A DNA stretch of 64,000 nt from Bacteroidota bacterium (GTDB lineage Bacteria; Bacteroidota; Bacteroidia; Chitinophagales; Chitinophagaceae). Location of the stretch: contig JAFEAJ010000041.1 of assembly GCA_018266455.1 (NCBI GenBank), forward strand, positions 1 through 64,000, in the 5' to 3' direction. A program made the translations under genes and the position numbers. Position 1 is the stretch's first letter. Each line of letters begins with the position of its first letter. The notes beneath the pieces were generated by a model. That model saw only the letters and a program-made list of their open reading frames with translations, ran no database searches and was not told the origin of the DNA. This document shows, piece by piece, positions 6,791-60,635 of the stretch.

Positions 6791-6792
6791 AA

Positions 6793-9689: not shown

Positions 9690-9693
9690 CGAG

Positions 9694-10971: not shown

Positions 10972-10982
10972 AATCGCTAACC

Positions 10983-11783: not shown

Positions 11784-11788
11784 CGCGC

Positions 11789-12886: not shown

Positions 12887-12910
12887 AGAGCGAGTTAGTA
12901 TGCAAGAGAA

Positions 12911-13189: not shown

Positions 13190-13199
13190 AATAAAGACC

Positions 13200-13406: not shown

Positions 13407-13415
13407 AATCCGTTT

Positions 13416-13661: not shown

Positions 13662-13689
13662 ATGCTCCATATGATAAGGAATGAAAATA

Positions 13690-13720
13690 ACACTTCCAAT
13701 CATGAATTGATTGGAAGTGT
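13690..13720. terminator. 13-bp perfect hairpin between convergent genes
   Basis: ACACTTCCAATCA (13690-13702) and TGATTGGAAGTGT (13708-13720) form a perfect 13-bp stem with a 5-nt loop TGAAT. It lies between the rightward accessory block and the leftward small gene and integrase, so it could serve as a bidirectional terminator. No strong T-run follows on the + strand, so a protein-binding site is an alternative. Confidence 0.5.
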
Positions 13721-13788
13721 CAAGCTAAAAAATCGAAAACAGTAACTGCATAAGAAATGTTGCACAATTTTTTATGATTATAGCAGCT

Positions 13789-13989
13789 CTACTCTTTGAT
13801 TGAAGTAATAGCACTTTCATAAGGCGATAAATCCATTGCTTTAGCATACTCATACGTCATATCGCCGTCTGAAGAATTCGACCATTCAACAAACACAAAT
13901 CCTTCCGGAGCTTCTCTTGTTAACCATACTGTTTTTTCGATCCCTTCATGCCACACAAACTGGCCGTTGTAAATTTCATTTTTTTGCAT
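13789..13989 (-). CDS. Small hypothetical protein downstream of the integrase
   Basis: A 66-residue acidic soluble protein (MQKNEIYNGQFVWHEGIEKT, ending YESAITSIKE). ATG 13989 is preferred to an upstream ATG (14040) because the extension is a hydrophobic, Phe-rich stretch read from AT-rich spacer. It lies 72 bases downstream of the integrase stop on the same strand. Family not recognised. Confidence 0.45.
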   Translation of the reverse strand: MQKNEIYNGQFVWHEGIEKTVWLTREAPEGFVFVEWSNSSDGDMTYEYAKAMDLSPYESAITSIKE

Positions 13990-14061
13990 TAATATAAATT
14001 GATTTACTACAATAATAAAGGGGAAGCATTTAAAAAGCAAATCAGCGAAAGTTTTTCTTAA

Positions 14062-15105: not shown

Positions 15106-15118
15106 TTGGAGTTGATTT

Positions 15119-15186
15119 TGTTCGCCAAACTGTTCGCCATTTGCGTGCCATTTTTGGCGAACAAAAGCGGAGAAAAGTGGCGAACA
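15119..15186. promoter_or_regulatory. Four copies of TGTTCGCCA (two direct, two inverted) upstream of the integrase
   Basis: TGTTCGCCA occurs at 15119-15127 and 15131-15139. Its exact reverse complement TGGCGAACA occurs at 15155-15163 and 15178-15186. The array fills the space between the integrase start and the tRNA. Such spaced 9-mers are typical of arm-type integrase sites or operator sites for an excision or control protein. The inner pair can also form a hairpin in RNA. Confidence 0.7.
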
Positions 15187-15242
15187 GTGACCAGTCATTA
15201 AACAAAAAAGCATGATAATCATTTAGTTATCAAGCTTCCCAG

Positions 15243-42375: not shown

Positions 42376-43134
42376 TTACGCAATTCTTAGTGCATGGACC
42401 ATTTCATTAGGCTGGATCCGGTTATCGCGAAAACTGAGGTCGGGATCAAAGTAGAAATTTTTTGAAAACCATTTTCGTTTCCTGTAAAACACCCACCCGA
42501 AAGGGGCTTTCTGTTCATTCATCCATGCAATGGTATTTTGTGCATTCTTTTCATTATAGTCATTGATAAAAATAAAAAACAACTGTCCCAGCGTCATGTT
42601 CAACGGCGCTTTTGAAGTGAAACTTGTCTGCACACTGTCCTGCGGTTTTTTATTGAAAATAAACTGCACCACTTCGATCTGCGAAAGATCGATCATGTCC
42701 AGGTCCGGCATCTCCGTATTTACCGGGTAATACCAAAGTTTGTATTCCGCTTTTGGTATCACAAGCAAAAAACAATACACCTGGTAGCACAAATAGGGCA
42801 CTATAAAAACAATGGCATAAGCCAGAAATGAAAAATTGCTTTTGCGCAAATAATAAATAATCCCTACAATGGCTGTGCTGCATAGCAATATCACCAGGGT
42901 TGCCAAAAGCCCCTTGCCGAATTCGGTTTTTTGAACAGGAAGGAACCTGTACATAAGCGTTACATGAAGAGCCCCCATCCCGAGGCATAAAAATTCGGCC
43001 AGGTAATAAAACTTATCTGCAGCATCGCTGCCCGCGAACTGCAGCAGGCCCACCGCGCTTACAAGCGCTGTTGCGATGAGCAGGTAGAAAAAAGTTTTTT
43101 TCCCGTATTTTTTTTCGATGATGTTGCCAGCCAT
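42376..43134 (-). CDS. tssN: Type VI secretion protein TssN (T6SSiii)
   Basis: A 252-residue membrane protein. The N-terminal half has several membrane helices (for example FFYLLIATALVSAVGLLQFA, FYYLAEFLCLGMGALHV, LLATLVILLCSTAIVGIIYYL and FLAYAIVFIVPYLCYQVYCFLLV). The soluble C-terminal domain contains APLNMTLGQLFFIFINDYNEKN and FRDNRIQPNEMVHALRI. This layout and the T6SS context fit TssN, a membrane component specific to the Bacteroidota T6SSiii subtype that substitutes for TssJ/L/M. It lies at the left edge of the locus, transcribed away from tssE. Assignment is moderate because TssN is poorly conserved. Confidence 0.7.
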   Translation of the reverse strand: MAGNIIEKKYGKKTFFYLLIATALVSAVGLLQFAGSDAADKFYYLAEFLCLGMGALHVTLMYRFLPVQKTEFGKGLLATLVILLCSTAIVGIIYYLRKSNFSFLAYAIVFIVPYLCYQVYCFLLVIPKAEYKLWYYPVNTEMPDLDMIDLSQIEVVQFIFNKKPQDSVQTSFTSKAPLNMTLGQLFFIFINDYNEKNAQNTIAWMNEQKAPFGWVFYRKRKWFSKNFYFDPDLSFRDNRIQPNEMVHALRIA

Positions 43135-43314: not shown

Positions 43315-44226
43315 ATGAGAAAGATCCAGGCCTTTTTTTCAATTTTGCTATTGAATGTTCTGTTTGCCGGTGCGGTTTCGGCACAAAATCAAAACAGCCC
43401 GGGAGCCGGGATATATGTAAAAGTGTATGGCGGGTATGGGCTGCTCACCCCGGGATCTTATTTGTTATACCCTTCCACCACAAATAACAATTCCGGCAGC
43501 AGCACTTTTAATTCTTCTTCAATTGGTTTAGGCGCAGGCCTTCACTATGGTGGCGGTATTGCTTATGTTGCCAGCGACTTTATTAATATTGGAATTGATG
43601 CCGAATATTTAAGTGGCAAAAAATTATCTTCGAGCAATAGCTATTCGTATTCCAATGGATCCAACAGTGGCAATTCTTTATATTCTCAAACGGTTACTCA
43701 TTCCGTGTTGAGCATCATTCCTAATGTTACTTTTAAGGCATTGTCTAAGCCGGGTTATTATATTTACAACAGGATCGGGATTGTCCTGGCAGTTAATACT
43801 AAAGTGCAGGTTGTTTCAACAGACACCTCCAATTCAGCTTCGGGCGGAAATGCTTATACTTATGGAAATTTAAGTAATCAGACTTATAAATTTGGCCTCA
43901 ATTTGGGGGTGCAGGCAGCAATAGGGGCGCAATTTAATTTAACCGATAACCTTCGGGGCTTTGTAGAAATTGTTGGTAATTACCTGCCGACTAAACCAAC
44001 ATCTTCAAAGGAGACAAGTACTACTAATGCTCAGACAAATGGCCTTCCCAATGCAGGCACGCCCTCTACCAGCAATTATAATTACACTTATAAAAAATCC
44101 GGTACTTTTAACAACACATCAAATCCGAATTCAACAAACGGATATGATTACAATTATACTGCGGCACCTGTTACTTTCAACATCAATTACATTGGTTTGA
44201 ACATAGGCGTAGCTTATAAGTTCTAA
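43315..44226 (+). CDS. Outer-membrane beta-barrel protein, copy 1, coupled to tssE
   Basis: A 303-residue protein. ATG 43315 starts a signal peptide (MRKIQAFFSILLLNVLFAGAVSAQ); the open frame upstream is not signal-like. Alternating beta strands (GIYVKVYGGYGLLTPGSYLL, GLGAGLHYGGGIAYVASDFINIGIDAEYLSG) and a C-terminal Phe (LNIGVAYKF) indicate an outer-membrane barrel. Ser/Asn/Tyr-rich loops hold repeated short motifs. It ends 2 bases before tssE, so they are coupled, and it is paralogous to the barrel beyond tssE. A T6SS-related envelope function is an inference from context only. Confidence 0.75.
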   Translation: MRKIQAFFSILLLNVLFAGAVSAQNQNSPGAGIYVKVYGGYGLLTPGSYLLYPSTTNNNSGSSTFNSSSIGLGAGLHYGGGIAYVASDFINIGIDAEYLSGKKLSSSNSYSYSNGSNSGNSLYSQTVTHSVLSIIPNVTFKALSKPGYYIYNRIGIVLAVNTKVQVVSTDTSNSASGGNAYTYGNLSNQTYKFGLNLGVQAAIGAQFNLTDNLRGFVEIVGNYLPTKPTSSKETSTTNAQTNGLPNAGTPSTSNYNYTYKKSGTFNNTSNPNSTNGYDYNYTAAPVTFNINYIGLNIGVAYKF

Positions 44227-44228
44227 AC

Positions 44229-44660
44229 ATGCAAGCTTCCTATTACAGGCTGCCGCTCAGGCTCGACCAGGTTATTCAAAGCAGGAAGCTGCCTTCCTGC
44301 CCGTTAAAGCATTCCATTGCGCAAAACCTGCACCTCGTCATTTCCACCTATCGCGGCGAATCAGCTTATTCTGATGATTTTGGCTGCAGCCTGTGGGACG
44401 AAGAATTTAATATACAGCTCAACCCCAGGTGGAGGGAAAACCTTTGCGATTCTTTAAAGCAGGCTATTGCGCAATTCGAGAAAAGGCTTTTGCTGCAGGA
44501 GGTAAAGGCCAATATGGAAGAACAGAACGAACTGCTGGAAAGGCAGAACCTACGGGTGAGGAGGTGCCTGCATATTGAACTGAAGGGCATCATTAAAAAA
44601 ACAAACGAATCGTTCACATTCAGGGACAGTATTTATATTTCTCCGCTGGCGCAGAAATAG
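44229..44660 (+). CDS. tssE: Type VI secretion baseplate protein TssE (GPW/gp25 family)
   Basis: A 143-residue cytoplasmic protein of the gp25/TssE family, which links the baseplate to the sheath. Family features are QNLHLVISTYRGESAYSDDFGCSLWDEEF near the N terminus and the C-terminal RRCLHIELKGIIKKTNESFTFRDSIYISPLA. It is on the + strand, opposite most other tss genes, between two beta-barrel paralogs. The start is 2 bases after the upstream barrel gene's stop. Confidence 0.85.
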   Translation: MQASYYRLPLRLDQVIQSRKLPSCPLKHSIAQNLHLVISTYRGESAYSDDFGCSLWDEEFNIQLNPRWRENLCDSLKQAIAQFEKRLLLQEVKANMEEQNELLERQNLRVRRCLHIELKGIIKKTNESFTFRDSIYISPLAQK

Positions 44661-44794
44661 GTATTCAAAATGCTTTTTTTGCAGGTTTTTTTTCGGCGAT
44701 TTATAGCATGTGTCCGTCGGTTATTTTCATTAATCCCGCATGGCCGGCTCAAATTTGTTTAGAAATCTTCTTTCCTTATTTCTAAATTTTTTTT

Positions 44795-45658
44795 ATGCCA
44801 CGCAGGTTATTTTTTGCATTTGCATTTTTTTTGCTATCCGTTTCATCGTTTTGCCAGGCACAACCTTCATCAGCAGACCTTTTTTTTATAAAGCTGTACG
44901 GAGGCTATGGCTTGCTTACCCCGGGATCATACCGGGGGAATTCCACAAAACAAGATTATGAGAATTTCAGCTCAGGGAAATTAGGGGCAGGGGCAGGCTT
45001 GCATTACGGTGCTGGCCTGGGCCTTGTTGTGAACGATTTTTTGAATATTGGTGTTGATGCCGAATTGTTAAGCGGGAAATTGCATTCTTCCACATCTTCC
45101 CGGAACACCTACACGAACTCGCATTTTCAGCAAACGGTCAGCTATTCGGTAACAAGCATAATCCCTAATATAACGTTTAAAGCACTTTCAAAGCCAGGTT
45201 ATTATATTTATACAAGAGTTGGACTGATTATCGCAGTAAGCACTAAAATCGAATTTGCAAATTTCGACAGCTCATATTCTACCGGCAGTGGAGCTGTGAC
45301 ATTGATCAACGGCGACGAAAATTATTATTTCAAGGTCAATGCAGGCATTCAAACCTCCGTTGGGGCGCAATTTAATATTACCGATAAGCTGAAAGGATTC
45401 GGTGAAATAACCGGTTATATACTGCCCGCATCTCCTACGCATTCCAAACAACAATATACCACCACAAGCTATGGGCCAACATTTTCGTCTTATTCAACAG
45501 TCACCAGTTACAATTACACTTATAAACGATATGGAAGTTACGCACCTGTGAGCACGCTTAATTCAACGGGCGGTGCAGATATTTCAGCCAACCAGCCATC
45601 AATTACCCAGGACATCAATTACATTGGGGTGAACATAGGAATAGTATTCAGGTTCTAA
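44795..45658 (+). CDS. Outer-membrane beta-barrel protein, copy 2
   Basis: A 287-residue signal-peptide-bearing barrel (MPRRLFFAFAFFLLSVSSFCQAQ) that shares long stretches with the copy before tssE: LYGGYGLLTPGSY, GAGLHYGAGLGLVVNDFLNIGVDAELLSGK and SIIPNITFKALSKPGYYIY. It ends VFRF with the terminal Phe expected for barrels. The pair seems to have arisen by duplication around tssE. Function not recognised. Confidence 0.75.
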   Translation: MPRRLFFAFAFFLLSVSSFCQAQPSSADLFFIKLYGGYGLLTPGSYRGNSTKQDYENFSSGKLGAGAGLHYGAGLGLVVNDFLNIGVDAELLSGKLHSSTSSRNTYTNSHFQQTVSYSVTSIIPNITFKALSKPGYYIYTRVGLIIAVSTKIEFANFDSSYSTGSGAVTLINGDENYYFKVNAGIQTSVGAQFNITDKLKGFGEITGYILPASPTHSKQQYTTTSYGPTFSSYSTVTSYNYTYKRYGSYAPVSTLNSTGGADISANQPSITQDINYIGVNIGIVFRF

Positions 45659-45852: not shown

Positions 45853-46404
45853 TCATAAGATACCCGCTAATGGGTCGCCAGGAGCAGGGATAAACCCAAA
45901 ACCTTCCGGCCATTGGTTTACTTTCTTGTTCCAGTTGCTTTTCCATCTTTGGATATCTGCAGAAGAAAGCTGGGTGCTAGCAGAAATGGTTTCCTGGGCT
46001 AATCCGCCGCTTTTGTCGTGCATTTCATTTCCCATTAACAGCTTGTTATGCATGGATTCGTGAAAAATCAGTTTGGCTAATAAATCGGTGTCATTAAGGC
46101 AACTGTCTAAGTAAACCTCGGAGGCCGCTTTTTTGGGATTTGTCTGAAAAGCAGTCAGCCCATTTGAAGTAGGGTCGATCGTTGGGTTAGTAGGGAAATG
46201 TTTTATCAATGAGTAGGAGTAGGAACTTACGACATAAACCAGCAAATCTGTATCGGTAATATTAACTCCAGTAGCGCTCGTGATCCAACTGACATTCATT
46301 TGCCCTGCTGCAATTCTAGTGAACAGTATATTCAATGCTCCGGTAACTGCCGTTTGCTTGTCAGTTGGCACATTGGCCACATTGGCAATATAAAAATTTG
46401 GCAT
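45853..46404 (-). CDS. Putative T6SS effector: HExxH zinc-metallopeptidase-like protein
   Basis: A 183-residue soluble protein without a signal peptide. ATG 46404 (MPNFYIANVANVP) is preferred over 46422. It carries HESMH at residues 115-119, followed by His129 (EMHDKSGG) and Glu138, so the zinc-metallopeptidase motif HExxH is present with candidate third ligands. The C terminus is Pro/Gly-rich. Located 18 bases after the Tae4 stop and downstream of Hcp/VgrG, it looks like a T6SS payload. No secretion signal or trans-acting chaperone is apparent. It might instead be an accessory or immunity gene for Tae4, but Tai4-like features are absent. Confidence 0.5.
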   Translation of the reverse strand: MPNFYIANVANVPTDKQTAVTGALNILFTRIAAGQMNVSWITSATGVNITDTDLLVYVVSSYSYSLIKHFPTNPTIDPTSNGLTAFQTNPKKAASEVYLDSCLNDTDLLAKLIFHESMHNKLLMGNEMHDKSGGLAQETISASTQLSSADIQRWKSNWNKKVNQWPEGFGFIPAPGDPLAGIL

Positions 46405-46422
46405 AAGCGAAAGTTTGCACAA

Positions 46423-46980
46423 TTAATTTGAACCGTCTCCGTATTCGCTGGAAAGGAAATCTAAAAACGAATTGATCTCCCAAAAATAAATCCCATGCAA
46501 AGCAGTCATGTCTCCCGCATGGTGTTCATCGGTGCTCCATAAATTATAATATAAATTTTCCCATTGGTATTGGCGCCCGTTCCACAAGTCAATATGCCTG
46601 CCCCCGAAACCGATTACCCCCTTCCTTCCATTAATATTTTTAACCAGGTCCGCTCTCGAACTGCCCCGATAGTTTTCACAGGGGAAATATTTATTGTCCA
46701 AGTACACTTTCATATCGAAGGTGCTGTAAATATAGTTGTACCCGTTGTCGTCTTTTATTGCCCGCACTTTGCCTGTTGCCAATCTCACATCATGATATTC
46801 ATAATCAGAGCCGATTGTTAAGAAAGAATTATTCAATGCATAGCTCAACTGAATGCAACAGGTTTCCTGCGGTGTTTTTAAAAACTTTCCTACATCACCA
46901 CCAATTCCCTTGTTCTTAATGTCAGTATAATTGGGGTGGTTGCTTTCAAGGAGCGTGTAATCGCTGTATATTTTAGACAT
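46423..46980 (-). CDS. Tae4-like T6SS peptidoglycan amidase effector
   Basis: A 185-residue protein with the Tae4 (NlpC/P60-type) amidase signature. TCCIQLSYALNNS (Cys41 in the catalytic position) matches the family pattern C-x-x-R-x-S-x-x-L-N, although the Arg is Gln here. FGGRHIDLWNG (His129) supplies the catalytic histidine. It would cleave peptide cross-links of target-cell peptidoglycan. It lies in the payload section downstream of Hcp and VgrG and lacks a signal peptide, as expected for a T6SS effector. No Tai4-type immunity gene is recognised next to it. Confidence 0.75.
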   Translation of the reverse strand: MSKIYSDYTLLESNHPNYTDIKNKGIGGDVGKFLKTPQETCCIQLSYALNNSFLTIGSDYEYHDVRLATGKVRAIKDDNGYNYIYSTFDMKVYLDNKYFPCENYRGSSRADLVKNINGRKGVIGFGGRHIDLWNGRQYQWENLYYNLWSTDEHHAGDMTALHGIYFWEINSFLDFLSSEYGDGSN

Positions 46981-48223: not shown

Positions 48224-48610
48224 CTACCATTTCTTTTCATGCGATGCATCGCCAACAGTTATCTTCCTGGCCGAAATGTTCAAAGTCATGGTCATTGCTG
48301 AAGATGAATTGGCGTTGAAGCTTTCAGAATAGCCCACGCAATACCCGTCTTCGAATTTTACTTCTTTAAGTGTGGAATCCTGGTCGATTTTTTTGAAAAC
48401 GATGCTGCCGCTTTTTTTAGCATACGGGTCGATCATCCAGCCCAAGACTGATGAATCTTCAGGAACTGAAATTTGCAAAGAAATGTTCCCGCCCTGAACA
48501 TCTGAGGCCGGCCTGCCTTTCTCGTCTGTAGCCTGCCCGAAAGAATAAACACAACTAATAACATCGTACTCGTTACCGTCTAATTTGAATGTTGCTGCAA
48601 AAGATGCCAT
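48224..48610 (-). CDS. tssD: Hcp-like tube protein TssD (copy 1)
   Basis: A 128-residue Hcp-family protein that stacks as hexameric rings to form the T6SS tube. It shows the Bacteroidota TssD pattern: start MASFAATFKLDGNEYDV, GRPASDVQGGNISLQISVPEDSSVLGWMIDP and SGSIVFKKIDQDSTLKEVKFEDGYCVGYSESF. It is one of four paralogs around vgrG and may carry specific effectors. Confidence 0.88.
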   Translation of the reverse strand: MASFAATFKLDGNEYDVISCVYSFGQATDEKGRPASDVQGGNISLQISVPEDSSVLGWMIDPYAKKSGSIVFKKIDQDSTLKEVKFEDGYCVGYSESFNANSSSAMTMTLNISARKITVGDASHEKKW

Positions 48611-48654
48611 AAATTTAATTTTTAGGTGTTATAAAATATATGATTAGTGAAAAA

Positions 48655-49074
48655 TTAACCGACCTGGCTCGACCATGTTGCGCTGGTGCTTACCCCATCC
48701 ACTTCTATATAGCCTGTGGTGATCAATATGGTGAGCACCATGCTATCGGAGGCCCCGGGTTGAAACACTTCATTATATTCAACTATCCACGACTTGTCAA
48801 ATTTGATGGTCCTGAATTTTGAATCTTCGTCTATTTTTTTAAATTCGATTGTTCCCTTCACAAGGTCGTTCATGTCAAAAACGCTTGCTACCACTACTTC
48901 TTTTTCTGATATCACGATATCGAGCTCTAAGGTGACCGTGCGTGCTTTCCCGCTGGGCAATCCTGTTGTGTCATAAGGTCTTCCGGTATTGAATGTGCAT
49001 CTTAATACATCGAAATCGCCTATGGTGCCCATTTTAGTGCTCGATAAATTGAGGGTTGCTGAAAAGGATGGCAT
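48655..49074 (-). CDS. tssD: Hcp-like tube protein TssD (copy 2)
   Basis: A 139-residue TssD paralog directly downstream of vgrG (23 bases). It shares IEFKKIDEDSKFRTIKFDKSWIVEYNEVF with the others and has a different N-terminal insert (SSTKMGTIGDFDVLRC). Divergent copies probably have different cargo or structural roles. Confidence in the family is high; the specific role is unknown. Confidence 0.85.
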   Translation of the reverse strand: MPSFSATLNLSSTKMGTIGDFDVLRCTFNTGRPYDTTGLPSGKARTVTLELDIVISEKEVVVASVFDMNDLVKGTIEFKKIDEDSKFRTIKFDKSWIVEYNEVFQPGASDSMVLTILITTGYIEVDGVSTSATWSSQVG

Positions 49075-49097
49075 ATTATTGTTTTTTGGTTTATGGA

Positions 49098-50906
49098 TCA
49101 GTTTATTTTTACTATTGCCCCTTTAACAGTAGTCATGGCATCACCGCTTACTTCTGTATTGGCGCTGCTGACCTTCGCACTGCCACTGGCCTTTAGCTCT
49201 GCAGAAGCCTGGCCTTCGATGCTCACCTGGGATCCTTTCAAAGAAGCATTTTGCTGCCCTTCCACACTTAGGTCATTGTCTGCCTTTATTTCGATGCTTT
49301 GCGATTTCATCGATATTTTTTGTTTGGCAGAAAACTCCATCGTGTCATCTGCTGAAATGTTCACTTTCCCCTTTGTCTGGATGGTGATCTGGCCATTGTC
49401 TTTAAATTCGAGAATTAGGCTGGTGTCATCCTTGTTTACATTGGTAATGCGGATCTTGTTCTCATTTTTCTTGTCTATCAGCTCGATCATGTTCCCGGCT
49501 TTGGTATAGATCAGTTTCTCATCGTTATTGCCCTGCAATGAGCGCATGCCGTCCTTTTTAGGGTAAAGGCTGGTGATGATAAAAGGGTGCTCAGGCTTGT
49601 TCAGTTCATAAGCTACTACCACCTGGGCTTCTTTCTCGGGAATAAACTGCATTCCTTTCCTGTCATCGCCGCCGGCATAAAAACTGCCTACGCGTATCCA
49701 GTCAGACTCTTTATCGTCTCCCGGCCAGTTGAACTGCACTTTTACCCGGCTCATCTTATCCGGGTCGTTATTATCAGTTACTTTAGCAAGTTCCGGCTGG
49801 CCAACAGGATGTTTTACATGGGGATTAACCGGGGGGAACTTTGCTGTTTCGGGAACGGCTTTGAACGCGTTCGAATAATTGCCGCTGCCGTCAACTGTGT
49901 GCACCAACTCGATGATCCTGTATTTTCCAAAACTTTCTTTTTGGCTGCGGCCTCCTTTTTCAGGCCTGGTGCCACTTACATTTACTACGCTGCCAACTGA
50001 AACTTCCGGTGTTTCTCCACGCCCGTTAAAAACGATCATGTTGCTTGCAATGGTTGACCTTTTGAACTTGATCAGTTCGTCCAGTTCATTCTGGTTATAA
50101 ACCGGCTTGTTTGCAATGAACAAAGCTTCCTGCCCGAAAAGGTTTTCTGATTCATCCAGCGCAAATTTGCCGAACTGGCTAAGCCCTTCAACCTGTTGAG
50201 AGGAGGATTGCCCTTTATAAAACTGGTCTTTGGTATAATCATACCCGTTCATTTTGAATTTTGCAGGCATCAGGGAAATGGCCATATCAAAAGACTGTAT
50301 GCCATCGATCATAAAATCGATTTCCTTCCCTGCATTGGATTCGCCTAAAACAATTTCCTTCCCATTATAAAAAAACCATTCTCCATATTCTGCAGCCATG
50401 CGGTTCAAAAAATCGAAATTGGTTTCGTCATACTGCACACAATATTTGATATTGCTTTTATGCCTCGGCGATAATTTTTTTTTGATGATGTTACCGGGGT
50501 AAACATTGAGCACCGAGTCAAAAATCTGTTGAACATTTTTGTCAAGGAAGGTCCTTCGCAATGAGCAGTCTTCCAGTAAAATGGTTGGGCTATACCCTTT
50601 CAATACAAAAACATTCGACAAGTCTGAGAGGTTAGACAATGAAATTTCGGTTATGATGCCTTTGAACTGAAAATCGAAAGAACCCTTTTTTAGTACAGGC
50701 TCAAAAGAAACGGTAACCTGTTTGCCACAAACATTTTTGTGCGATTTATTGAAAAAGGTTTCGTCTTTGTCTTCCAGCATTTCAATAGGCACTGAAATTT
50801 GGAAACTATGGTGCCCAAATAAATCTTGTTTGATCTCGAGGCCCTGATAGTGCGTCAGTTTCTTCCCGTTATCTAATTCAATATTTGCCTTTACCTGTTG
50901 GGCCAT
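49098..50906 (-). CDS. vgrG: Spike protein TssI/VgrG
   Basis: A 602-residue trimeric spike protein at the tip of the Hcp tube. It has the gp27-like start (NIELDNGKKLTHYQGLEIKQDLFGHHSFQISVPIEMLED), CSLRRTFLDKNVQQIFDSVLNVYPGN and ISLMPAKFKMNGYDYTKD. Next is the gp5-like OB/needle section (MSRVKVQFNWPGDDKESDWIRVGSFYAGGDDRKGMQFIPEKEAQVVVAYE), and then a beta-helical tail of short repeats (MKSQSIEIKADNDLSVEGQQNASLKG). It has no C-terminal effector extension and is a typical Bacteroidota VgrG. Confidence 0.95.
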   Translation of the reverse strand: MAQQVKANIELDNGKKLTHYQGLEIKQDLFGHHSFQISVPIEMLEDKDETFFNKSHKNVCGKQVTVSFEPVLKKGSFDFQFKGIITEISLSNLSDLSNVFVLKGYSPTILLEDCSLRRTFLDKNVQQIFDSVLNVYPGNIIKKKLSPRHKSNIKYCVQYDETNFDFLNRMAAEYGEWFFYNGKEIVLGESNAGKEIDFMIDGIQSFDMAISLMPAKFKMNGYDYTKDQFYKGQSSSQQVEGLSQFGKFALDESENLFGQEALFIANKPVYNQNELDELIKFKRSTIASNMIVFNGRGETPEVSVGSVVNVSGTRPEKGGRSQKESFGKYRIIELVHTVDGSGNYSNAFKAVPETAKFPPVNPHVKHPVGQPELAKVTDNNDPDKMSRVKVQFNWPGDDKESDWIRVGSFYAGGDDRKGMQFIPEKEAQVVVAYELNKPEHPFIITSLYPKKDGMRSLQGNNDEKLIYTKAGNMIELIDKKNENKIRITNVNKDDTSLILEFKDNGQITIQTKGKVNISADDTMEFSAKQKISMKSQSIEIKADNDLSVEGQQNASLKGSQVSIEGQASAELKASGSAKVSSANTEVSGDAMTTVKGAIVKIN

Positions 50907-50933
50907 TGCTTGGGTATTTGATGGGAATAATAT

Positions 50934-51419
50934 TTACCATTTATTATCATGATCCACTCCGTCAATTTTGATTTTTTCGGCGGACAGGCGGCATAAAATA
51001 AGGTAACTCATATTTGTTCTTTTTTGGACTGATTCAAGTATTTCAAATCCGATTTCCACAGGCTTATAATCAAAATTCAGTTCATCACCGCTTAAGCGTT
51101 TGGGATCAGAAGCATCTTCATCTGTAATGAAGCTTTCAATCAAATAAGTCAGGTACGCACCTTTGAATTCAATTTCTTTAAACTTGGAGTCCTGATCTAT
51201 CTTAAAAAAAGTTATTGTCCCATCCTGTTTTTTTGTCGGATCTGTTACCCACGACCCGAAAGTGTCATCTGCGGTTCCTTCCACAACAATCCAGATGTGA
51301 CCGCCATGAACTCCTGATGAAGGTCTACCTGCACTATCTGTTTTTTGTTCTAAAATGGATTCGCAGTGAACCAACTCAAATGTTTTGCCCCCGACATCAA
51401 TAGTAGCTTTAAAAGACAT
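50934..51419 (-). CDS. tssD: Hcp-like tube protein TssD (copy 3, with extended insertion)
   Basis: A 161-residue TssD, longer than its paralogs because of an insertion near residues 116-135 (DASDPKRLSGDELNF). The core motif ITFFKIDQDSKFKEIEFKGAYLTYLIESF and the start MSFKATIDVGGKTFELVHC are family-typical. It is 27 bases upstream of vgrG. The insertion could be a cargo-recognition loop. Confidence 0.85.
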   Translation of the reverse strand: MSFKATIDVGGKTFELVHCESILEQKTDSAGRPSSGVHGGHIWIVVEGTADDTFGSWVTDPTKKQDGTITFFKIDQDSKFKEIEFKGAYLTYLIESFITDEDASDPKRLSGDELNFDYKPVEIGFEILESVQKRTNMSYLILCRLSAEKIKIDGVDHDNKW

Positions 51420-51443
51420 AGTAGTTTTATTATTTTAATCCGA

Positions 51444-51827
51444 CTATCCCGGCCAGTTACCCTGGAAAGATGCTGTGTTAATTTGTATGTCTTTTCCCGT
51501 AATATTTATTTCGCACGTAGCGTACGAAATATCCGCTTTGAATTCATCCTTCAAATAAACACAATAGCCTTTCTTGAATTCAATCTCTTTAAGTTTTGCA
51601 TCCTGATCAATTTTGTAAATGGTAATCTTTCCATCAATTTGTTTTGCCGGATCAACCATCCAACTGGTCAATGTGGTATCATCAACAGCATCTAGTATTA
51701 CGATTATTTTCCAAAAAGGTATGGATGATGGCCTGCCTTTTGAATCAGTTTTTCGAAAGATAAAAGTATAAAATCTCCTTACACTAAACGTTTTTCCGTT
51801 AACGGTGAGTTCTGATTTGAAGGACAT
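51444..51827 (-). CDS. tssD: Hcp-like tube protein TssD (copy 4)
   Basis: A 127-residue TssD starting MSFKSELTVNGKTFSVRRF, with the family motif KITIYKIDQDAKLKEIEFKKGYCVYLKDEF. It begins 23 bases after the caspase-fold gene, so the two are coexpressed. It may serve as the tube protein or as carrier for that cargo. Confidence 0.85.
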   Translation of the reverse strand: MSFKSELTVNGKTFSVRRFYTFIFRKTDSKGRPSSIPFWKIIVILDAVDDTTLTSWMVDPAKQIDGKITIYKIDQDAKLKEIEFKKGYCVYLKDEFKADISYATCEINITGKDIQINTASFQGNWPG

Positions 51828-52626: not shown

Positions 52627-54000
52627 TTACTGGCCCTGCGCATACTCTGCCTGCCATTCTGCTGAATCCGGGTCATCGCCTTTTTGCCCGTCAAGTTTTA
52701 TCAGGAAGTTTTTTGCAGGGAAATAGGGCGTCATGTGAATGTCAAGAAAAATGCGGTCCTTCTGCTTGGGGTCCTGTTCAAACCTTAAGATTTTGAATTT
52801 TTCGATCAGTTTTCCCGGCCCGGTAATGCTGTCAAGGAATTTCACGATCTGTTTTTGCAGGTCCATTCTCGTGTTCACATTAAAATTCTCAAATGCGCGC
52901 CTGTTCAGGAAATCGATCAGTACCTTGGTGACATAATCAAATACCCTTACTACCGAATATGTTTGCAGGCCGATGTTGTCGCCATTGAACAATGTCTTGG
53001 CTGAGAATGGCATTACCTTGCCATATTCATTGACCATGGGCACCAGTCCAATTTTTTCCAACTGGGCTATTTCGCTTTTTTTCAACTGGAAGCGCACGCC
53101 ATCCACCTCATTTAATGCGCCATGTTTTCTTCCGGCTGCCACCTGCGACATTAAAGTGCTGTACACTTTTCCTGCCAGTGCCGTGGAGGGCGGTACGAAA
53201 AGATCATCTTCTTCGCCAACATCCTGGCTTTTTCCCCGTCCAACCAGCCAGTTGCAAGCCATCATCACATTCGACAGGTAAGCGTCTCCTCCTGTAAGGT
53301 CTGCTGATTCAAATAAATCAATCACATCATCTGCTCCATCGAGGTGCTCAAAATCTGTCACGAGCATCACTTTATTTTTGTAAGCGATCCTTGCCCATTT
53401 ATCTATCACTTTTTTAGATCCCAGGTAGCCTGGAATAGAAAGGATGGAGTAATTGTCCCTCAGGTCGAGGCGGTCGTAATTTTGCTGTAGTTCTTCGGAA
53501 ACAGCATCAATGAAAACGGTATTGTCCAGGTCGGCCAGTTGTTCCATGGATGCATTCATAATGTAAACATTCTTTGCCTTATCCTGGTCCGAGTTTTTAT
53601 AAAAATTATTTACAGAACGATAAGATCGTTCAAGGTCTCTTGTGGCCTCGAGCGCATTTTTCAGGTTTTTGTTGAGCAGGGCCTGCGCGGTGTCTGATTT
53701 GGATTGGGCATTTTCAATGAGCGATACCACTGAATCGGAGGATGACAACAGGTCAAGGATAAGCTCAAACCTTTTTTTCAGCGCTGCCCGTTCTTCTTTT
53801 TTCGAATCTTCGGAAAGGAAGATTTTTTTTCTTGCTTTTTTTTCAGGGTTCAGGTTTTGTGCCCCGTCAATTGTAGTTTCAATAATGCCGAAGCTGCCGT
53901 ATTTTGTCAAGGATGACAAGCCTTGTTCCAGCGACAGTTCCTGCACCTTTTCTTTCTCTGCAGCCTGCCCCGTTTGTGCCTGCTTTTCTTCGTTAGCCAT
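52627..54000 (-). CDS. tssC: T6SS sheath protein TssC
   Basis: About 457 residues. ATG 54000 (MANEEKQAQTGQAAEKEKVQ) is preferred over an upstream frame to 54087 that overlaps tssB. It is the large sheath subunit, which forms the contractile sheath with TssB around the Hcp tube. Conserved parts include YSILSIPGYLGSKKVIDKWARIA, LVTDFEHLDGADDVIDLFESADLTGGDAYLSNVMMACNW and FGDNIGLQTYSVVRVFDYVTKVLIDFLNRRAF (the insert reads FNGDNIG). It follows tssB by 22 bases. Confidence 0.93.
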   Translation of the reverse strand: MANEEKQAQTGQAAEKEKVQELSLEQGLSSLTKYGSFGIIETTIDGAQNLNPEKKARKKIFLSEDSKKEERAALKKRFELILDLLSSSDSVVSLIENAQSKSDTAQALLNKNLKNALEATRDLERSYRSVNNFYKNSDQDKAKNVYIMNASMEQLADLDNTVFIDAVSEELQQNYDRLDLRDNYSILSIPGYLGSKKVIDKWARIAYKNKVMLVTDFEHLDGADDVIDLFESADLTGGDAYLSNVMMACNWLVGRGKSQDVGEEDDLFVPPSTALAGKVYSTLMSQVAAGRKHGALNEVDGVRFQLKKSEIAQLEKIGLVPMVNEYGKVMPFSAKTLFNGDNIGLQTYSVVRVFDYVTKVLIDFLNRRAFENFNVNTRMDLQKQIVKFLDSITGPGKLIEKFKILRFEQDPKQKDRIFLDIHMTPYFPAKNFLIKLDGQKGDDPDSAEWQAEYAQGQ

Positions 54001-54022: not shown

Positions 54023-54469
54023 TTATGCTGTTTGTTCCATTTCGTTAATGAGCGATTTGATGCAAGACATATAGGCAGCCTTTGCATCTTTATTCTCCAG
54101 TAGTGTTTTAAGTATTTTGTTCGACTTCAGTTGTTTCACAAATTTCTGCAGGTCATCACACTGCTGGTTCAGCTCATTCAGGTATGTGCTTTGTTTTGTA
54201 ATGCCCTGTTTGCCAAAATCGGCCAGGCCTGTGAAATGGAGCTCTTCCGATTTGGAAGCCCCGTCTTCTGTTTCAAACTCCACCTCTTTGGCAGGTTTAA
54301 AAAACGCAAACACATCGCTTACATTTTTCAGGTCAGGAATGATCTGGGGCGAAAGTGGCGGGTCATCTGTTAATTTTTCGATCAGCAAAGTCCGGTTTTG
54401 CGGGATATCCGCAATGCCTTCGCTGACTTCGCTTTTTCTTTCCTGTCCGCCAATGTCGTAGTTGAACAT
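54023..54469 (-). CDS. tssB: T6SS sheath protein TssB
   Basis: A 148-residue small sheath subunit, partner of TssC. It has the family pattern MFNYDIGGQERKSEVSEGIADIPQNRTLLIEKLTDD followed by VSDVFAFFKPAKEVEFETEDG, and a helical C terminus. It is preceded by a 546-bp intergenic region, which suggests that transcription of tssBC and the payload genes restarts here. Confidence 0.9.
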   Translation of the reverse strand: MFNYDIGGQERKSEVSEGIADIPQNRTLLIEKLTDDPPLSPQIIPDLKNVSDVFAFFKPAKEVEFETEDGASKSEELHFTGLADFGKQGITKQSTYLNELNQQCDDLQKFVKQLKSNKILKTLLENKDAKAAYMSCIKSLINEMEQTA

Positions 54470-55015: not shown

Positions 55016-57502
55016 TCATGTTTTTTTAAAATCCCATTCCAGTTCATTCTCATTTTTTAGCCCAAGGTGTATAGCAGAGCCTTTCACCACATCGCCTGAA
55101 ATGATTTTTCTTGAAATCGGCCTCCTGAGCTGGTTCCGGATCACACCTTTGATTTGCCTGGCGCCATATTTTGGGGTGAAGCCTGATAAGGTGAGGTTGC
55201 GTTTTGCTTCAGGAGTTATTGAAAGCGAAATGCCTTGTTTCGATAACGGGTCAGTAAGGCTTTTAAGATGGATATCAAATATCCGTACAGCATTTTCTTC
55301 AGAAATGGGAGCGAAGGGCACAATTTCTGTAAGCCTCGCCAGGAACTCGGGCCTGAAATATTTGGCCATGATCTCCATCATATCTGTTGAAGATGGTATT
55401 TCTCCCTTGCCAAACCGGTCTACAATAAAATCGCTGCCGATATTGGACGTGAACAGGACGATTGCATTTGAAAAATCGCCTTCTTTGCCCAGCCGGTCGT
55501 GCAATTTGCCTTCATCAAGGATCTGCAGGAAAATATCAAAAACGGAAGGGTGCGCTTTTTCGATCTCATCAAACAATACTACTGAATAGGGTTTTTCACG
55601 AATTTTATTTACCAGCATGCCACCTTCTTCATAACCCACATAACCCGGGGGAGCGCCGTATAATAAAGCAGCAGAATGTTCTTCTTTAAATTCCGACATG
55701 TCGAACCTGATGAGGAAGGATTCATCGTTGAAGAGAAAATCGGCAAGAGATTTTGCCAATTCGGTTTTGCCAGTGCCGGTTGGCCCTAATAAAAAGAATG
55801 ATCCTATTGGCTGGCCAGCCTTAATAAGCCCTGACCTCGATTCAAGGATGGCTTCGGATACGGCTTTGATTGCATGGTCCTGCCCGATCACCCTTTTTTT
55901 AAGCACCTCTTCAACAGATAATAATTTTTCTCTTTCCTTGCTTTGGATTTTGCCTAAAGGGATGCCCGTTTTGTACGAAATGATGGCAGCTACATCCATT
56001 TTGGTAACAGTGTCTCTTTTTTCGTCTGCAAATTTTTTCAGCCGCGAAACGGATGATTGCATGTGGCCTGATAAGATGGTTGCCACTTCGAGGTCGATGT
56101 TTTCCATCTCGCTCTCTTCATCCAGCTTGTTGAAAAGAATGGGGCTTATTTTGTCTTTTAGTTCTTTATAGCACCATTTTAATTTGTTCAGGATCCCGTC
56201 ACGGTCCTCGTTTTCATTGATGGCGGATAAATTCTTCTCTACTTCATCCAGTTCCCTCATTGAAGTATCGCCCATCATTTTTATTGCAGCCATTGTCCTG
56301 TCGATCAGGTCAACTGCCGAGTCGGGGAGGTGCCTGTCTTTGGAATATCGCTTGGCCAGCACCACGGCATCGCGCAAAGCCTCATGTTCTACTTTCAATG
56401 CATGGTGCTTTTCGTATAGCGGCACCACATTTTTAAGCATATTGATGGCTGTTTCAATGTCGGGCTCTTCAACACGGATTACTTCAAAGCGCCTGCTGAA
56501 TGCTTCATCTGATTCGATATATTTCCTGTATTCTTCGTTAGTGGTCGCTCCGAGCAGGGTTAGCTCGCCACGGGCCAGCTCAGGCTTTAACAGGTTCACC
56601 ACCCCTGTTCCAATAGAGCCTTTGCTGTCGAGCAGCAGGTGGATCTCGTCAATGAAAAGTATGGCTTTTTCAAACTGCTTGATCTCCTTGATAATGTTTT
56701 TGATCCTGTCTTCGACCTCTCCTTTATAAGAAGCGCCGGCCACCAATGCCCCCGTATCTAATTCAAGCAGCCTGGCATTTTCGAGCATCTTCGGCACTTT
56801 GCCTTGAACAATGGCTTGCGCAAACCCTTCAATGAGCGCTGTTTTGCCAACACCGGGCTCACCAATAATAATCACATTGGGCTTTGTCCTGCGGCCAAGC
56901 ACTTCAATCATCATGCGCAGTTCTTTGTCGCGGCCGATGATGGGATCCAGCCTTCCTTCTTCAGCAAGCGCGGTTTTGTCAACGCAATATTTGTACAAAG
57001 CATTTGCTTTGGCAGCAGCGGTTTGGTTATTGCTCTTTGCCTCGCCTTTTTGATCGGGTTTTATAGATTGAAGTATGGAATCTTCGCTTATTGCAGCGTC
57101 CATGATTTCTTTCTGTGTGGCAGGAAAGGTTTTTAACTGGTCCTGTGTAAATGCAGCGCCTGGTTTGAGCAATGCAGCGAAGATGCTTAAGGGGTCTGTA
57201 TAGTCATGGTTCAATTGCATGGCTACTAGGTCGGCAAGTTCAATGGCTGCGGCTGCTTTTTCATCTGCCTGCATGGCGCCCGGGGCTTTTGCTGTTTTAG
57301 GATAGCCCTCTATGCGTATTTCAGCCCATTCGCGCATGAAGTTGACGTCTTTTTGCACAGATGCCAGCCATGAGGCGAGACCTACTTCATTGTGGAGCAG
57401 GCCAAGCATGAGGTGGCCAGGCCCGAAGGTTTCATTGCTGTATTCCTTTGCGAGAGACTGTGCAATCGAAATCGCTCTTTTCGACTCTTCATTAAAAGCC
57501 AT
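55016..57502 (-). CDS. clpV: T6SS ATPase ClpV (TssH)
   Basis: An 828-residue ClpB/Clp AAA+ unfoldase that disassembles contracted TssB/TssC sheath for reuse. It has the N-terminal Clp N domain, a first AAA domain with Walker A GEPGVGKT (214-221), and FSRRFEVIRVEEP. The middle segment is shorter than in ClpB, as in the ClpV group. The second AAA domain has Walker A GPTGTGKT (about 571-578) and SALLYGAPPGYVGYEEGG. Cotranscribed with tssO (24-base gap). Confidence 0.93.
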   Translation of the reverse strand: MAFNEESKRAISIAQSLAKEYSNETFGPGHLMLGLLHNEVGLASWLASVQKDVNFMREWAEIRIEGYPKTAKAPGAMQADEKAAAAIELADLVAMQLNHDYTDPLSIFAALLKPGAAFTQDQLKTFPATQKEIMDAAISEDSILQSIKPDQKGEAKSNNQTAAAKANALYKYCVDKTALAEEGRLDPIIGRDKELRMMIEVLGRRTKPNVIIIGEPGVGKTALIEGFAQAIVQGKVPKMLENARLLELDTGALVAGASYKGEVEDRIKNIIKEIKQFEKAILFIDEIHLLLDSKGSIGTGVVNLLKPELARGELTLLGATTNEEYRKYIESDEAFSRRFEVIRVEEPDIETAINMLKNVVPLYEKHHALKVEHEALRDAVVLAKRYSKDRHLPDSAVDLIDRTMAAIKMMGDTSMRELDEVEKNLSAINENEDRDGILNKLKWCYKELKDKISPILFNKLDEESEMENIDLEVATILSGHMQSSVSRLKKFADEKRDTVTKMDVAAIISYKTGIPLGKIQSKEREKLLSVEEVLKKRVIGQDHAIKAVSEAILESRSGLIKAGQPIGSFFLLGPTGTGKTELAKSLADFLFNDESFLIRFDMSEFKEEHSAALLYGAPPGYVGYEEGGMLVNKIREKPYSVVLFDEIEKAHPSVFDIFLQILDEGKLHDRLGKEGDFSNAIVLFTSNIGSDFIVDRFGKGEIPSSTDMMEIMAKYFRPEFLARLTEIVPFAPISEENAVRIFDIHLKSLTDPLSKQGISLSITPEAKRNLTLSGFTPKYGARQIKGVIRNQLRRPISRKIISGDVVKGSAIHLGLKNENELEWDFKKT

Positions 57503-57526: not shown

Positions 57527-58462
57527 TCAACCCATGTTAGAGAGCTTCTTCAGCTCATTATCGACTTTTTTCAGGATTTTATTCACTTTGTCGCCATCAG
57601 GGTAACTGGGGCTTGATTTTTCAAGGACATCTTTTGCTGAAGACAATATCCCCCTTCTTTCAATAAGGTTTTTTGTGCCTTCTGCTTTCTCATATAAAGC
57701 CTGGCCAGTTTCAAAAAGCAGTGTTGCTTTTTGGCTTTCCGACAAATTGCTTGTTTTACCGGAAGGTTGTGCAGATTGCAGCGCAAGCTTATCGCGCTTA
57801 CAGGCTTCCAAATCCTCCTGGGCTTTCGCTAACTGTGCCTGCAACTGTGCTTCTTTAGCATTGTTTGTCATGCTGCCACCACCGCCCCCGGAGGGAGGAG
57901 CCGGTTTGGCACTTGCGGCTGCTGCCAGCTTGGCAATGGCAAGCTGTGTATTGCATGCCTGAAGATCAGATTGGGCTTTTACCAGTGCAGCAGCGTCGCC
58001 ACCTTTTGCCAACAAGGAGCTTTGCAATTGGCCGATCGCATTGCGATAAGACAATATGGTATTGAATGCTATGGCGTAGTTGTATGAATTTTTTCTTGAG
58101 ATGGGGGAAATAAAGCTTGTGCTGTCGCTTTGCAGTTCCGAAATCACATTGCTAATGCCCTTTTGGTATTGGTTCGCCTGTGTCTGAAGATTGCCTTTTT
58201 CAATATCGTTTGTAGAGCTGGCATAATTTTTATCAGCCTGCACAAGATTATTGAGGCTTGTGGTGGCCCCATCAATTTTGTTCATCAGGTTGGTTTGCTC
58301 ATCTTCTGTAGTTTTGTACAATTCAATTTTATTCTTAAAAATCCCAGCCGGGACATTAAATAAAAAATAGGCACAAACGATCACGGCTACCAGGGATAAT
58401 CCATAAATGCCAATGAATTTTCCTATTGCAGCGTTTCTTGCACTTTTATTAACTGCATCCAT
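57527..58462 (-). CDS. tssO: Type VI secretion protein TssO (T6SSiii)
   Basis: A 311-residue bitopic membrane protein. It has a short cytoplasmic start, one helix (about 15-36, IGIYGLSLVAVIVCAYFLFNVPAG), a periplasmic helical region, and a Gly-rich linker (APPSGGGGGSMTN). A coiled coil (KEAQLQAQLAKAQEDLEACKRDKLALQ) and a helical C terminus follow. The N-terminal N(K)-x-A-x-x-A-x-x-K-F pattern followed by FNVPAGIFKNKIELYK agrees with TssO, a membrane component specific to Bacteroidota systems. It lies between tssK and clpV. Confidence 0.75.
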   Translation of the reverse strand: MDAVNKSARNAAIGKFIGIYGLSLVAVIVCAYFLFNVPAGIFKNKIELYKTTEDEQTNLMNKIDGATTSLNNLVQADKNYASSTNDIEKGNLQTQANQYQKGISNVISELQSDSTSFISPISRKNSYNYAIAFNTILSYRNAIGQLQSSLLAKGGDAAALVKAQSDLQACNTQLAIAKLAAAASAKPAPPSGGGGGSMTNNAKEAQLQAQLAKAQEDLEACKRDKLALQSAQPSGKTSNLSESQKATLLFETGQALYEKAEGTKNLIERRGILSSAKDVLEKSSPSYPDGDKVNKILKKVDNELKKLSNMG

Positions 58463-58513: not shown

Positions 58514-59689
58514 TCAGGATAATGGGCTCCACCTGCTGTTTGGTTTTTCCTGAGGCGGATTTTGGGGTTTGGTTTCTTTCACTTCCTGCTCGATTACAAA
58601 AATATTCTGCCCTTTCTTTTTGCCAATAAAATCAAGCATGGACAACTTCTGGAAAATTTGTATGTACAATTGATGTATCTGGTTTATTTCGGAAAAAACC
58701 TGTTGTATATCAAAATGATTGTACTGCAATTGCAATGATTTTGCAGTAGCCAGGTCAATGCTCCCAGCCTGCACATCGGTCCATTCTGCAAAATAATTCA
58801 ACATTTCTTCCCGCTCTTTCTCAGGGTAACAAACCAACAATGTGTTAATGAACTGGATATTGCTCAGCAAAAATACAAACATATTAACCGGCGCCGCCTG
58901 TCCAATGATCCATTGGTTATATAGTTTTTGGGAGGCCAGCTGCTTCAGCATATTTTCACTAAGCTTCAATATGCTTATTGATAAAGTAGTCTGTTGCTGC
59001 GACTGGGTCTTTGAATTTATTTTTTGGATGATCCTTGTGCAGTACTGTTCCCAGCTTTCAAGTTGCTGCCTGAAAAGCCTGTGCCATTCTTCAAGAGCCG
59101 GGAGAGAAGCTATCGAACAAGACGCAGGGATATATTCTTTATGATGCAGCAGCTCACCATTTTGGTATACAATTTTGCCTATAACAAGGCTTGCCTGCAG
59201 CTGGCTTTGGTTAACCTGTTCGGCAGGAATAAGGTCAAGTTTCAGGTCGGCCTTTGTGAACGGGTGCCTTGGCGGGTTTTCATTCATTAATGGCTCACCA
59301 ACAGGCACTCGCTCAAAAAGGTTAACGGTTACTATAATTAACAGGGATTGCGATTGTGATGTCTGTAAATTGAACTTTTTGGCGATCTCTTTAAAATTGG
59401 TATTCAGCTTTACTGGTTCCGCAGGCAGCAATTGGATCCTGCATCCATTGGGTGTTATCGCCTTGCAGGTGTTGAGTTCTATGTTAATTTGCTGGCTGAA
59501 ATCGCAAAACACATTTATTTCGAAAGCATGCTCGGCCGGCAATATGCCGAAATTATAAGGGGTAAGGTTACGTGCCGCCACATCTCTCAATTGTTCATGA
59601 AGGTATTGTCCGCTTTGGTCAAAATGAAGGCGGGAGATTTTCATTCCGTCAACCCAGTTCACAGGCAAATAGTTCAAATCTCCAAGCAT
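58514..59689 (-). CDS. tssK: T6SS baseplate protein TssK
   Basis: A 391-residue baseplate subunit connecting the baseplate to the membrane complex. The start (NYLPVNWVDGMKISRLHFDQSGQYLHEQLRD) fits the TssK N-terminal receptor-binding-like domain, and the later Leu-rich helical segment (LKLSENMLKQLASQKLYNQWIIGQAAPVNMFVFLLSNIQFINTLLV) matches the family. The C-terminal PNSRWSPLS tail is short. It is 10 bases after tssG. Confidence 0.85.
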   Translation of the reverse strand: MLGDLNYLPVNWVDGMKISRLHFDQSGQYLHEQLRDVAARNLTPYNFGILPAEHAFEINVFCDFSQQINIELNTCKAITPNGCRIQLLPAEPVKLNTNFKEIAKKFNLQTSQSQSLLIIVTVNLFERVPVGEPLMNENPPRHPFTKADLKLDLIPAEQVNQSQLQASLVIGKIVYQNGELLHHKEYIPASCSIASLPALEEWHRLFRQQLESWEQYCTRIIQKINSKTQSQQQTTLSISILKLSENMLKQLASQKLYNQWIIGQAAPVNMFVFLLSNIQFINTLLVCYPEKEREEMLNYFAEWTDVQAGSIDLATAKSLQLQYNHFDIQQVFSEINQIHQLYIQIFQKLSMLDFIGKKKGQNIFVIEQEVKETKPQNPPQEKPNSRWSPLS

Positions 59690-59699: not shown

Positions 59700-60635
59700 T
59701 TAAATAACAGTAGTGTAATTTAATCTCCCAAAATAAGGCATTTCATTTTCAACAACAAAAGAAAGTGCCGTTTTTGAAAAGTCAAGTTCGAACCTGGTGT
59801 CGTTTTCTATCGGCATAAACAAATTGCAAAGAAATTCAAGAAGCTTCATTTTTTGTCCTTCCGGCATATAATCGGTCAGGTTATCCAGTTTTTGAAGGAA
59901 TATCTTGATGTTGAACGATTCCATTGTTGAAAAAAGTTCCCCGTCCAGGATGCTATCCTTACCTAAAGCGGTGTTGCCAAGGACTGGCCCATCTTTTAAA
60001 ATATGTTTCCTGGGAAGGGAGCGGCAAATCTCAACTTCGTCGCCGCTTATGGCGCTGACCACAAAGCTGATCAGCTCCATATCGCCTGCTATTTTATTGA
60101 CGACCGGCATTAATAAACACAGCTTGCTTTTTTGAAGGCTGTCAAAAAAATCAGGGAAATCCCATAACGAATCGATCAATTCCGTATGCAGGTCGCCGTT
60201 AGTATCAAACAAAAACTTTTTTTCCTCCGTTTCCAGCTTCACGCGCAAACGGTAAAATTCCTGTTCAAACGGGTTGAAGAATTGCCTTGCTGACTGTTCC
60301 AGTTCATCCTGGAACTTGATTTCTTTGATGATTTTTTCTTTGTTAAATGTTTTTTGCGTGTCGGTAGGCTGATGGAACAGGTCTTCGGGAAGCTTATCAT
60401 AAACGCCATCCCTGTTCACTACAAAACGCAACTTTTTTTTCTTCGAGTGGCCATATTCTACCTGCTCGGTTTTTTCTATGTCCCTGTGGTAACACCTTTT
60501 GAACAAGCTGTTGTTAATAACTGATATGTCATCCATGCTCAGGCTGTCGGATACCAATTCGGCAAGGATAATTTCCAGCCTGATGTCGAGTTGCATCCGG
60601 TTTAACAGTTCATTTAATTTTTCAAGCACAGGCAT
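59700..60635 (-). CDS. tssG: T6SS baseplate protein TssG
   Basis: A 311-residue protein located directly after tssF (16-base gap), as in other T6SS loci. It has RFVVNRDGVYDKLPEDLFHQPTDTQ, the TssG-type GVYDxLPEDLFH motif, and a helical/beta C-terminal part. It forms the baseplate wedge with TssF. Sequence is divergent from the Proteobacterial type, as expected for T6SSiii. Confidence 0.85.
   Translation of the reverse strand: MPVLEKLNELLNRMQLDIRLEIILAELVSDSLSMDDISVINNSLFKRCYHRDIEKTEQVEYGHSKKKKLRFVVNRDGVYDKLPEDLFHQPTDTQKTFNKEKIIKEIKFQDELEQSARQFFNPFEQEFYRLRVKLETEEKKFLFDTNGDLHTELIDSLWDFPDFFDSLQKSKLCLLMPVVNKIAGDMELISFVVSAISGDEVEICRSLPRKHILKDGPVLGNTALGKDSILDGELFSTMESFNIKIFLQKLDNLTDYMPEGQKMKLLEFLCNLFMPIENDTRFELDFSKTALSFVVENEMPYFGRLNYTTVI

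Follow-up and report, generated by a model that had tools for sequence, protein, structure and literature searches.

A predicted outer-membrane barrel gene linked to tssE in one clade of Bacteroidota T6SSiii

Little is understood of how a T6SS engages the outer membrane, and least of all in Bacteroidota. The membrane complex of the Bacteroidota T6SSiii is TssNQOPR; tssN and tssP are nearly ubiquitous, and each of the tssNQOPR genes is essential in B. fragilis (PMC10781749). Systems lacking components are concentrated in Spirosoma, Hymenobacter and Flavobacterium, and for Spirosoma and Hymenobacter the missing membrane-complex genes were left without an explanation, with other protein partners still to be identified (PMC10781749). 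The window analysed here, a stretch of 64,000 nucleotides from a Chitinophagaceae genome (assembly GCA_018266455.1, contig JAFEAJ010000041.1), carries a T6SSiii locus in which tssE lies between two paralogous genes, bar1 and bar2, that encode putative outer-membrane barrels. This arrangement raises the question of whether such a barrel belongs to the secretion machine, and if so, in what capacity.

The T6SSiii locus and its two barrel genes

The locus is complete and occupies positions 42376-62505 (Table 1). tssN is divergent from bar1; the plus-strand group bar1/tssE/bar2 is followed by minus-strand genes in the order cargo, hcp/vgrG, tssC, tssB, clpV, TssO-like, tssK, tssG and tssF. It is a T6SSiii by the presence of TssN and of Bacteroidota-type TssC and TssD, with the baseplate (TssEFGK), the sheath (TssBC), ClpV and VgrG all encoded within one locus. 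The assignments of TssE, TssN, TssC, TssD, TssF and VgrG are backed by Pfam, while those of TssK, TssG and TssB combine sub-threshold matches with homology to the loci of relatives.

Table 1. Features of the T6SSiii locus in the window
Feature	Positions	Strand	Length and basis
tssN, inner-membrane part of the T6SSiii membrane complex	42376-43134	-	Pfam PF17555, E 6.5e-56
bar1, predicted eight-stranded outer-membrane beta-barrel, first gene before tssE	43315-44226	+	303 aa
tssE, T6SS baseplate, gp25-like	44229-44660	+	143 aa; Pfam PF04965 (GPW_gp25), E 1.1e-13; NCBIfam TIGR03357, E 4e-8, below the NCBIfam cut-off
bar2, paralogue of bar1	44795-45658	+	287 aa; 134 bp after tssE
Four hcp (tssD) and vgrG (49098-50906)	48224-51827	-	Pfam TssD PF17642 (E 2e-30; tested on two of the four hcp genes, the other two assigned by homology among loci); VgrG domains
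tssC, Bacteroidota type	52627-54000	-	Pfam PF17541, E 1.3e-226 on 52630-54000
tssB	54023-54469	-	Pfam PF05591, E 0.008, below cut-off; 62-63% to relatives
clpV (tssH)	55016-57502	-	AAA/ClpB domains; 63-66% to ClpV of relatives
TssO-like, lengthened	57527-58462	-	TssO-type N-terminal membrane anchor and predicted long helical periplasmic part
tssK, baseplate	58514-59689	-	NCBIfam TIGR03353, E 6e-9, below cut-off; 39-43% to Spirosoma/Xanthocytophaga TssK
tssG, baseplate	59700-60635	-	Pfam PF06996, E 0.0016, below cut-off; 33-37% to TssG of L006-L009
tssF, baseplate	60652-62505	-	Pfam PF05947, E 1.2e-6; basis of the tree

An earlier note on this DNA, made from the sequence alone, had described the three plus-strand genes and their positions correctly, and had taken bar1 and tssE to be cotranslated. 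The TAA stop codon of bar1 (44224-44226) is indeed followed by the tssE ATG 2 bases further on, a close spacing that fits cotranscription. A search upstream of bar1 and bar2 found no convincing Bacteroidota -7/-33 promoter pair. The two barrels, the only copies detected in the window's genome, are 46% identical over 284 aligned residues (E 3e-77), and the two segments quoted in the earlier note as shared, YGGYGLLTPGSY and KALSKPGYYIY, are identical in both.

Neither protein matched a family in Pfam, NCBIfam or PHROGs, and a search of the PDB for sequence relatives of the barrel found none. Their identity as outer-membrane barrels is supported by a signal-peptide-like N-terminal stretch, a C-terminal Phe and an AlphaFold model (pLDDT 79, pTM 0.73, 18 sequences), which we read as an OmpA/NspA-type barrel with eight transmembrane strands and long extracellular hairpins. 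Using VIA-align, the solved folds nearest to the model were NspA (Z 18.1), the Legionella Dot/Icm porin III (18.1), OprF-N (17.5) and OmpA (17.4), a resemblance that we take to be one of fold class and not of kinship. The predicted eight-strand fold is thus shared with the small barrels OmpA, NspA, OprF-N and OmpW (Z 15-18), at the level of the fold only. In contrast to these, the T6SS barrel has long extracellular hairpins, is linked to a T6SS and has no Pfam match, including to PF00691, the C-terminal peptidoglycan-binding domain of OmpA, which was sought in both bar1 and bar2. The Legionella Dot/Icm T4SS porins (PDB 9nh2 and 9nh1; Z 18.1 and 9.3) are likewise barrels assigned to a secretion machine, but the machine is a different one, no sequence relation to them is shown, and the similarity is of fold class only, tied with that to OmpA and NspA.

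Beside bar2 the minus strand encodes a Tae4-type amidase effector (46423-46980; PF14113, E 3.5e-12) and a downstream partner (45853-46422) with an HESMH motif of the kind seen in zinc-metalloproteases. Since this pair is absent from the otherwise similar locus of palsa_954 (L004), it is possibly inserted cargo. Upstream of the T6SS, positions 2934-15222 hold genes that, on visual inspection of their translations alone, resemble a Bacteroidota conjugative transposon (a TraG-like ATPase followed by tra-type genes, and a tyrosine integrase at 14062-15222).

Distribution of the barrel and its linkage to tssE

When the genomes of 84,980 species were scanned with only the barrel as the query and without regard to T6SS genes, eight loci were returned, five of which are flanked by T6SS genes. 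Three sequences (L010, L012 and L177) were rejected as core members, as the tree places them apart in an outgroup of their own (100/100) and they have no T6SS genes alongside. The core family was redefined without L010, whose inclusion in the profile had inflated the outgroup scores, and the profile scores show a sharp gap: complete core members score at least 241 bits, the Ferruginibacter-type outgroup 113-141 and everything else below 90. Distant family members (E >1e-30) are widespread and resemble ordinary barrels, with no T6SS genes beside them at the loci checked, and the wider family was rejected as a T6SS marker.

The core barrel was detected in 16 genomes, namely the window's, G628, palsa_954, Xanthocytophaga flavus (G633), G672 and 11 of the 36 genomes of the S. 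arboris genus (Spirosoma). In every one of the 16, tssE is immediately preceded on its own strand by a core barrel gene, the gap being 2 bp in the window and in G628 and 7-28 bp in the others measured. The exact barrel-tssE-barrel triad, for which the earlier note had recommended looking in other genomes, recurs in palsa_954, where orf47028 and hcp genes come after it just as in the window. This conservation of position spans Chitinophagaceae, Spirosoma and Xanthocytophaga, whose core members are only 33-46% identical to bar1. Within the window's genus, both T6SS-positive genomes (the window's and G628) have the barrel and none of the three T6SS-negative ones (G424, G514 and G580) does. Because the same adjacency is found in 16/16 genomes with a core barrel, the linkage to tssE is not chance, and the barrel is a T6SS-linked gene.

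It is not, however, general to T6SSiii. The core barrel was missing from 18 of 20 clearly T6SSiii-positive genomes in a class-wide sample, and in a Cytophagales sample it was present in 5 of the 33 TssE-positive genomes. A tree of TssF from 83 loci unites the barrel-bearing systems (7 rows) in a single clade with SH-aLRT 100, nested in an 18-row clade (support 100) that also contains Cytophagales systems with neither detectable TssP nor a barrel. The barrel is therefore a marker of one T6SSiii clade. Of the two observations that the earlier note had set against its idea, absence from most other T6SSiii loci is what we found, but occurrence in T6SS-negative genomes is not, as no core-family barrel was present in a T6SS-less genome among those searched. 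As the window's Chitinophagaceae T6SS groups in this tree with Cytophagales systems, apart from most Chitinophagaceae T6SSs, the tree also suggests lateral transfer of the T6SS island.

Complete Spirosoma islands have the order barrel(s)-tssE-F-G-K-TssO-like-clpV-(PAAR, cargo)-tssB-C-hcp-vgrG-tssN. The number of barrels varies from one to several per genome, with a single core barrel detected in Spirosoma luteum DSM 19990, and six Spirosoma genomes have extra barrels away from tssE. In one Spirosoma genome (G872) the tssE-linked barrel is split by a TGA stop (L261/L262, G872:C1:2687178-2688091), and intact unlinked copies occur elsewhere in the genome. In other T6SSiii loci the slot before tssE often holds another envelope gene, TssP or SLT transglycosylase-like; the barrel occupies that same slot.

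Envelope genes of the barrel clade

In all the complete barrel islands examined, TssN is present and a TssO-like protein is encoded between tssK and clpV. Residues 1-73 of the window's TssO-like protein, comprising the N-terminal anchor and the following helix, match the TssO profile (hhalign probability 96.5%, E 1e-9); the much longer part beyond residue 73 is modelled, with low confidence, as helical (pLDDT 62). The window's protein had no match to the TssO family of Pfam (PF17561), and its S. arboris homologue reached 15.9 bits, in its N-terminal half only, against a cut-off of 29.2. The cooccurrence of the barrel with TssN and TssO that the earlier note had wanted checked holds, then, for TssN in each complete island examined and for TssO only in the form of this longer protein.

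TssP was sought as a PKD protein of ~300-370 aa. Full-length matches were obtained in 11/11 barrel-less T6SS genomes tested (E 1e-42 to 1e-132) and in none of six barrel-positive genomes, where only PKD repeats matched a profile that missed two of nine canonical Cytophagales controls and that a very divergent TssP could escape. A genome-wide profile search of the window's genome (99.7% complete) gave only PKD-repeat matches in long open frames; G672, which has the barrel, gave no TssP match, and in the barrel-positive G290 TssP was confined to a second T6SS locus, of the canonical type. TssP is likewise undetectable in a sister group without the barrel (G636, G760, G855, G741, G692, G845, G791 and G705); loss of TssP therefore does not require the barrel, and the idea that the barrel caused it is weakened.

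The TssR profiles (PF17643 and PF20782, covering an N-terminal barrel domain and a VWA domain) had no match in the window's genome, and TssR-VWA was found in none of the six barrel-positive genomes without a canonical locus in the data, versus 26 of the 61 genomes searched. Among the barrel-less T6SS genomes, too, about half gave no TssR match, and TssR loss was rejected as a clean partner of the barrel.

Compared with the TssNQOPR complex, the barrel clade retains TssN, a TssO-like protein with a matching N-terminal anchor and the same T6SSiii baseplate and sheath genes, but it has no detectable TssP or TssR, a single lengthened TssO-like gene and a tssE-linked barrel. The earlier note had argued for a barrel partner from the absence of the usual TssJLM complex. 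This is not by itself a ground for one, given that Bacteroidota are known to have TssNQOPR (PMC10781749); the stronger reason is that the barrel clade is without detectable TssP and TssR.

The G628 island is accompanied by genes for exported proteins (L118:16240-19901, L238:2-1378), a set partly common to G628 and the barrel-less loci of G705, G791 and G351 (L218:3-2755, L217, L117:18161-19900). A set of this type was not found in the window's own contig. It includes one TPR protein and, in G705, one OmpA-domain protein, the others being of unassigned family, and it may form a periplasmic module of its own in this branch of T6SSs.

Possible roles of the barrel

We know of no T6SS with an integral beta-barrel component, and in the literature searched found no published description of this barrel, or of a T6SSiii that combines such an envelope gene with a reduced membrane complex; the words 'barrel' and 'porin' do not occur in the text of PMC10781749. 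Across one clade a barrel gene immediately precedes tssE. The complete islands of this clade have, as their envelope genes, tssN, a lengthened TssO-like gene and at least one barrel, with TssP and TssR undetected. A dedicated outer-membrane partner for the T6SS is a reasonable idea, and the barrel, always before tssE in a clade without detectable TssP and TssR, is a good candidate for the outer-membrane part that the machine is missing.

The explanation that we favour, to which we would give not quite an even chance, is that the barrel is an anchor or docking component, not a channel, that ties a TssN/TssO-like assembly in the inner membrane to the outer membrane. BAM would insert the barrel, whose periplasmic face would bind the TssO-like protein at the long helical stretch predicted to lie in the periplasm; the TssO-like protein would itself sit in the inner membrane with TssN. 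The inner-membrane complex would in this way gain its outer-membrane attachment, the task proposed for TssR and, in Pseudomonadota, for TssJ; these, unlike the barrel, are lipoproteins, and we saw no sequence or domain relation to them. Coupled translation with tssE might keep the supply of barrel in step with that of the baseplate. The Hcp tube would pass beside or between the barrels, because an eight-stranded barrel is expected to have no usable lumen, and several barrels per machine, or two alternating paralogues, could explain the duplicates. This anchor role is favoured by the 16/16 adjacency, the genus-level copresence, the single TssF clade, the TssP/TssR pattern, the constancy of TssN, the fold and the use of the slot before tssE. 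Against it speak the TssP-less, barrel-less sister group, the frequent failure to detect TssR elsewhere, the unlinked Spirosoma barrels, the split copy in G872, the additional exported-protein genes of G628 and the variable extracellular loops, which fit a surface role equally well. The broader proposal, of a T6SSiii sub-type with a re-engineered envelope, one that has given up TssP and TssR, has a TssO lengthened into the periplasm and uses a barrel translated with TssE as its outer-membrane end, we put forward tentatively, as possible but somewhat short of probable.

The main rival to an anchor is a surface accessory, co-regulated with the machine, whose variable hairpins would serve to grip or recognize prey or kin, or to shield the outer membrane of the shooter. 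The model has long extracellular beta-hairpins, loops L1-L4 are poorly conserved (0.34-0.46, versus 0.64-0.85 for the strands), and copies number from one to several, some away from tssE. Variable loops are, however, usual for any outer-membrane barrel. Much of the T6SS-specific signature lies outside the variable tips: the stretch YxKxYGxYxLLTPG, located in strand 1 and at the rim of loop 1, accounts for half of the core-specific positions. The strict tssE linkage and the absence of TssP and TssR point to a structural part, and we regard a surface accessory as less likely than an anchor, though quite possible. We consider it improbable that the barrels confer immunity, guarding the cell from periplasmic or membrane effectors of its own T6SS. 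Immunity genes typically occur as paralogues and in scattered copies, and bar2 lies beside an effector block with the Tae4-type amidase, but the conserved neighbour is tssE and not an effector, and the Spirosoma and Xanthocytophaga islands keep the barrel by tssE with other cargo. To our knowledge, no barrels serve as immunity proteins.

The fold class is very common, and distant relatives away from T6SS genes would suit a mere passenger: an unremarkable outer-membrane protein gene that travelled with the moving island and has no role in the machine. A passenger is nonetheless quite improbable given an adjacency kept in all 16 genomes despite the divergence from bar1, and the lack of core members in the T6SS-less genomes searched. 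A barrel that itself conducts the Hcp tube across the outer membrane, as the earlier note had suggested, would have the right genetic position, but the modelled strand number is eight, as in OmpA and NspA. The lumen of those barrels is closed, and the Hcp tube is several nanometres wide. On the modelled strand number a single barrel could not pass the tube, and this reading, scarcely credible to us, was rejected.

The barrel resembles the Pseudomonadota accessories TagL and MltE (as described in PMC10781749) in being an extra envelope gene recruited to a T6SS, but those bind or cut peptidoglycan, whereas the barrel is predicted to span the outer membrane. It offers, in one clade, a concrete counterpart to the reported losses of membrane-complex genes, and suggests that the T6SSiii membrane complex changes more readily than the baseplate and sheath do. 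With the long TssO-like protein it makes up a named gene pair, amenable to deletion and purification in environmental bacteria that are not pathogens.

In many T6SSiii loci of Chitinophagaceae (L145, L147, L148, L150, L153, L154 and L156-L159) the genes immediately preceding tssE encode proteins that resemble one another; one of them was tested and carries the SLT transglycosylase domain of Pfam (E 1.6e-24). How T6SSiii crosses the peptidoglycan has been listed as unknown (PMC10781749), and this SLT-type protein is a candidate for that step.
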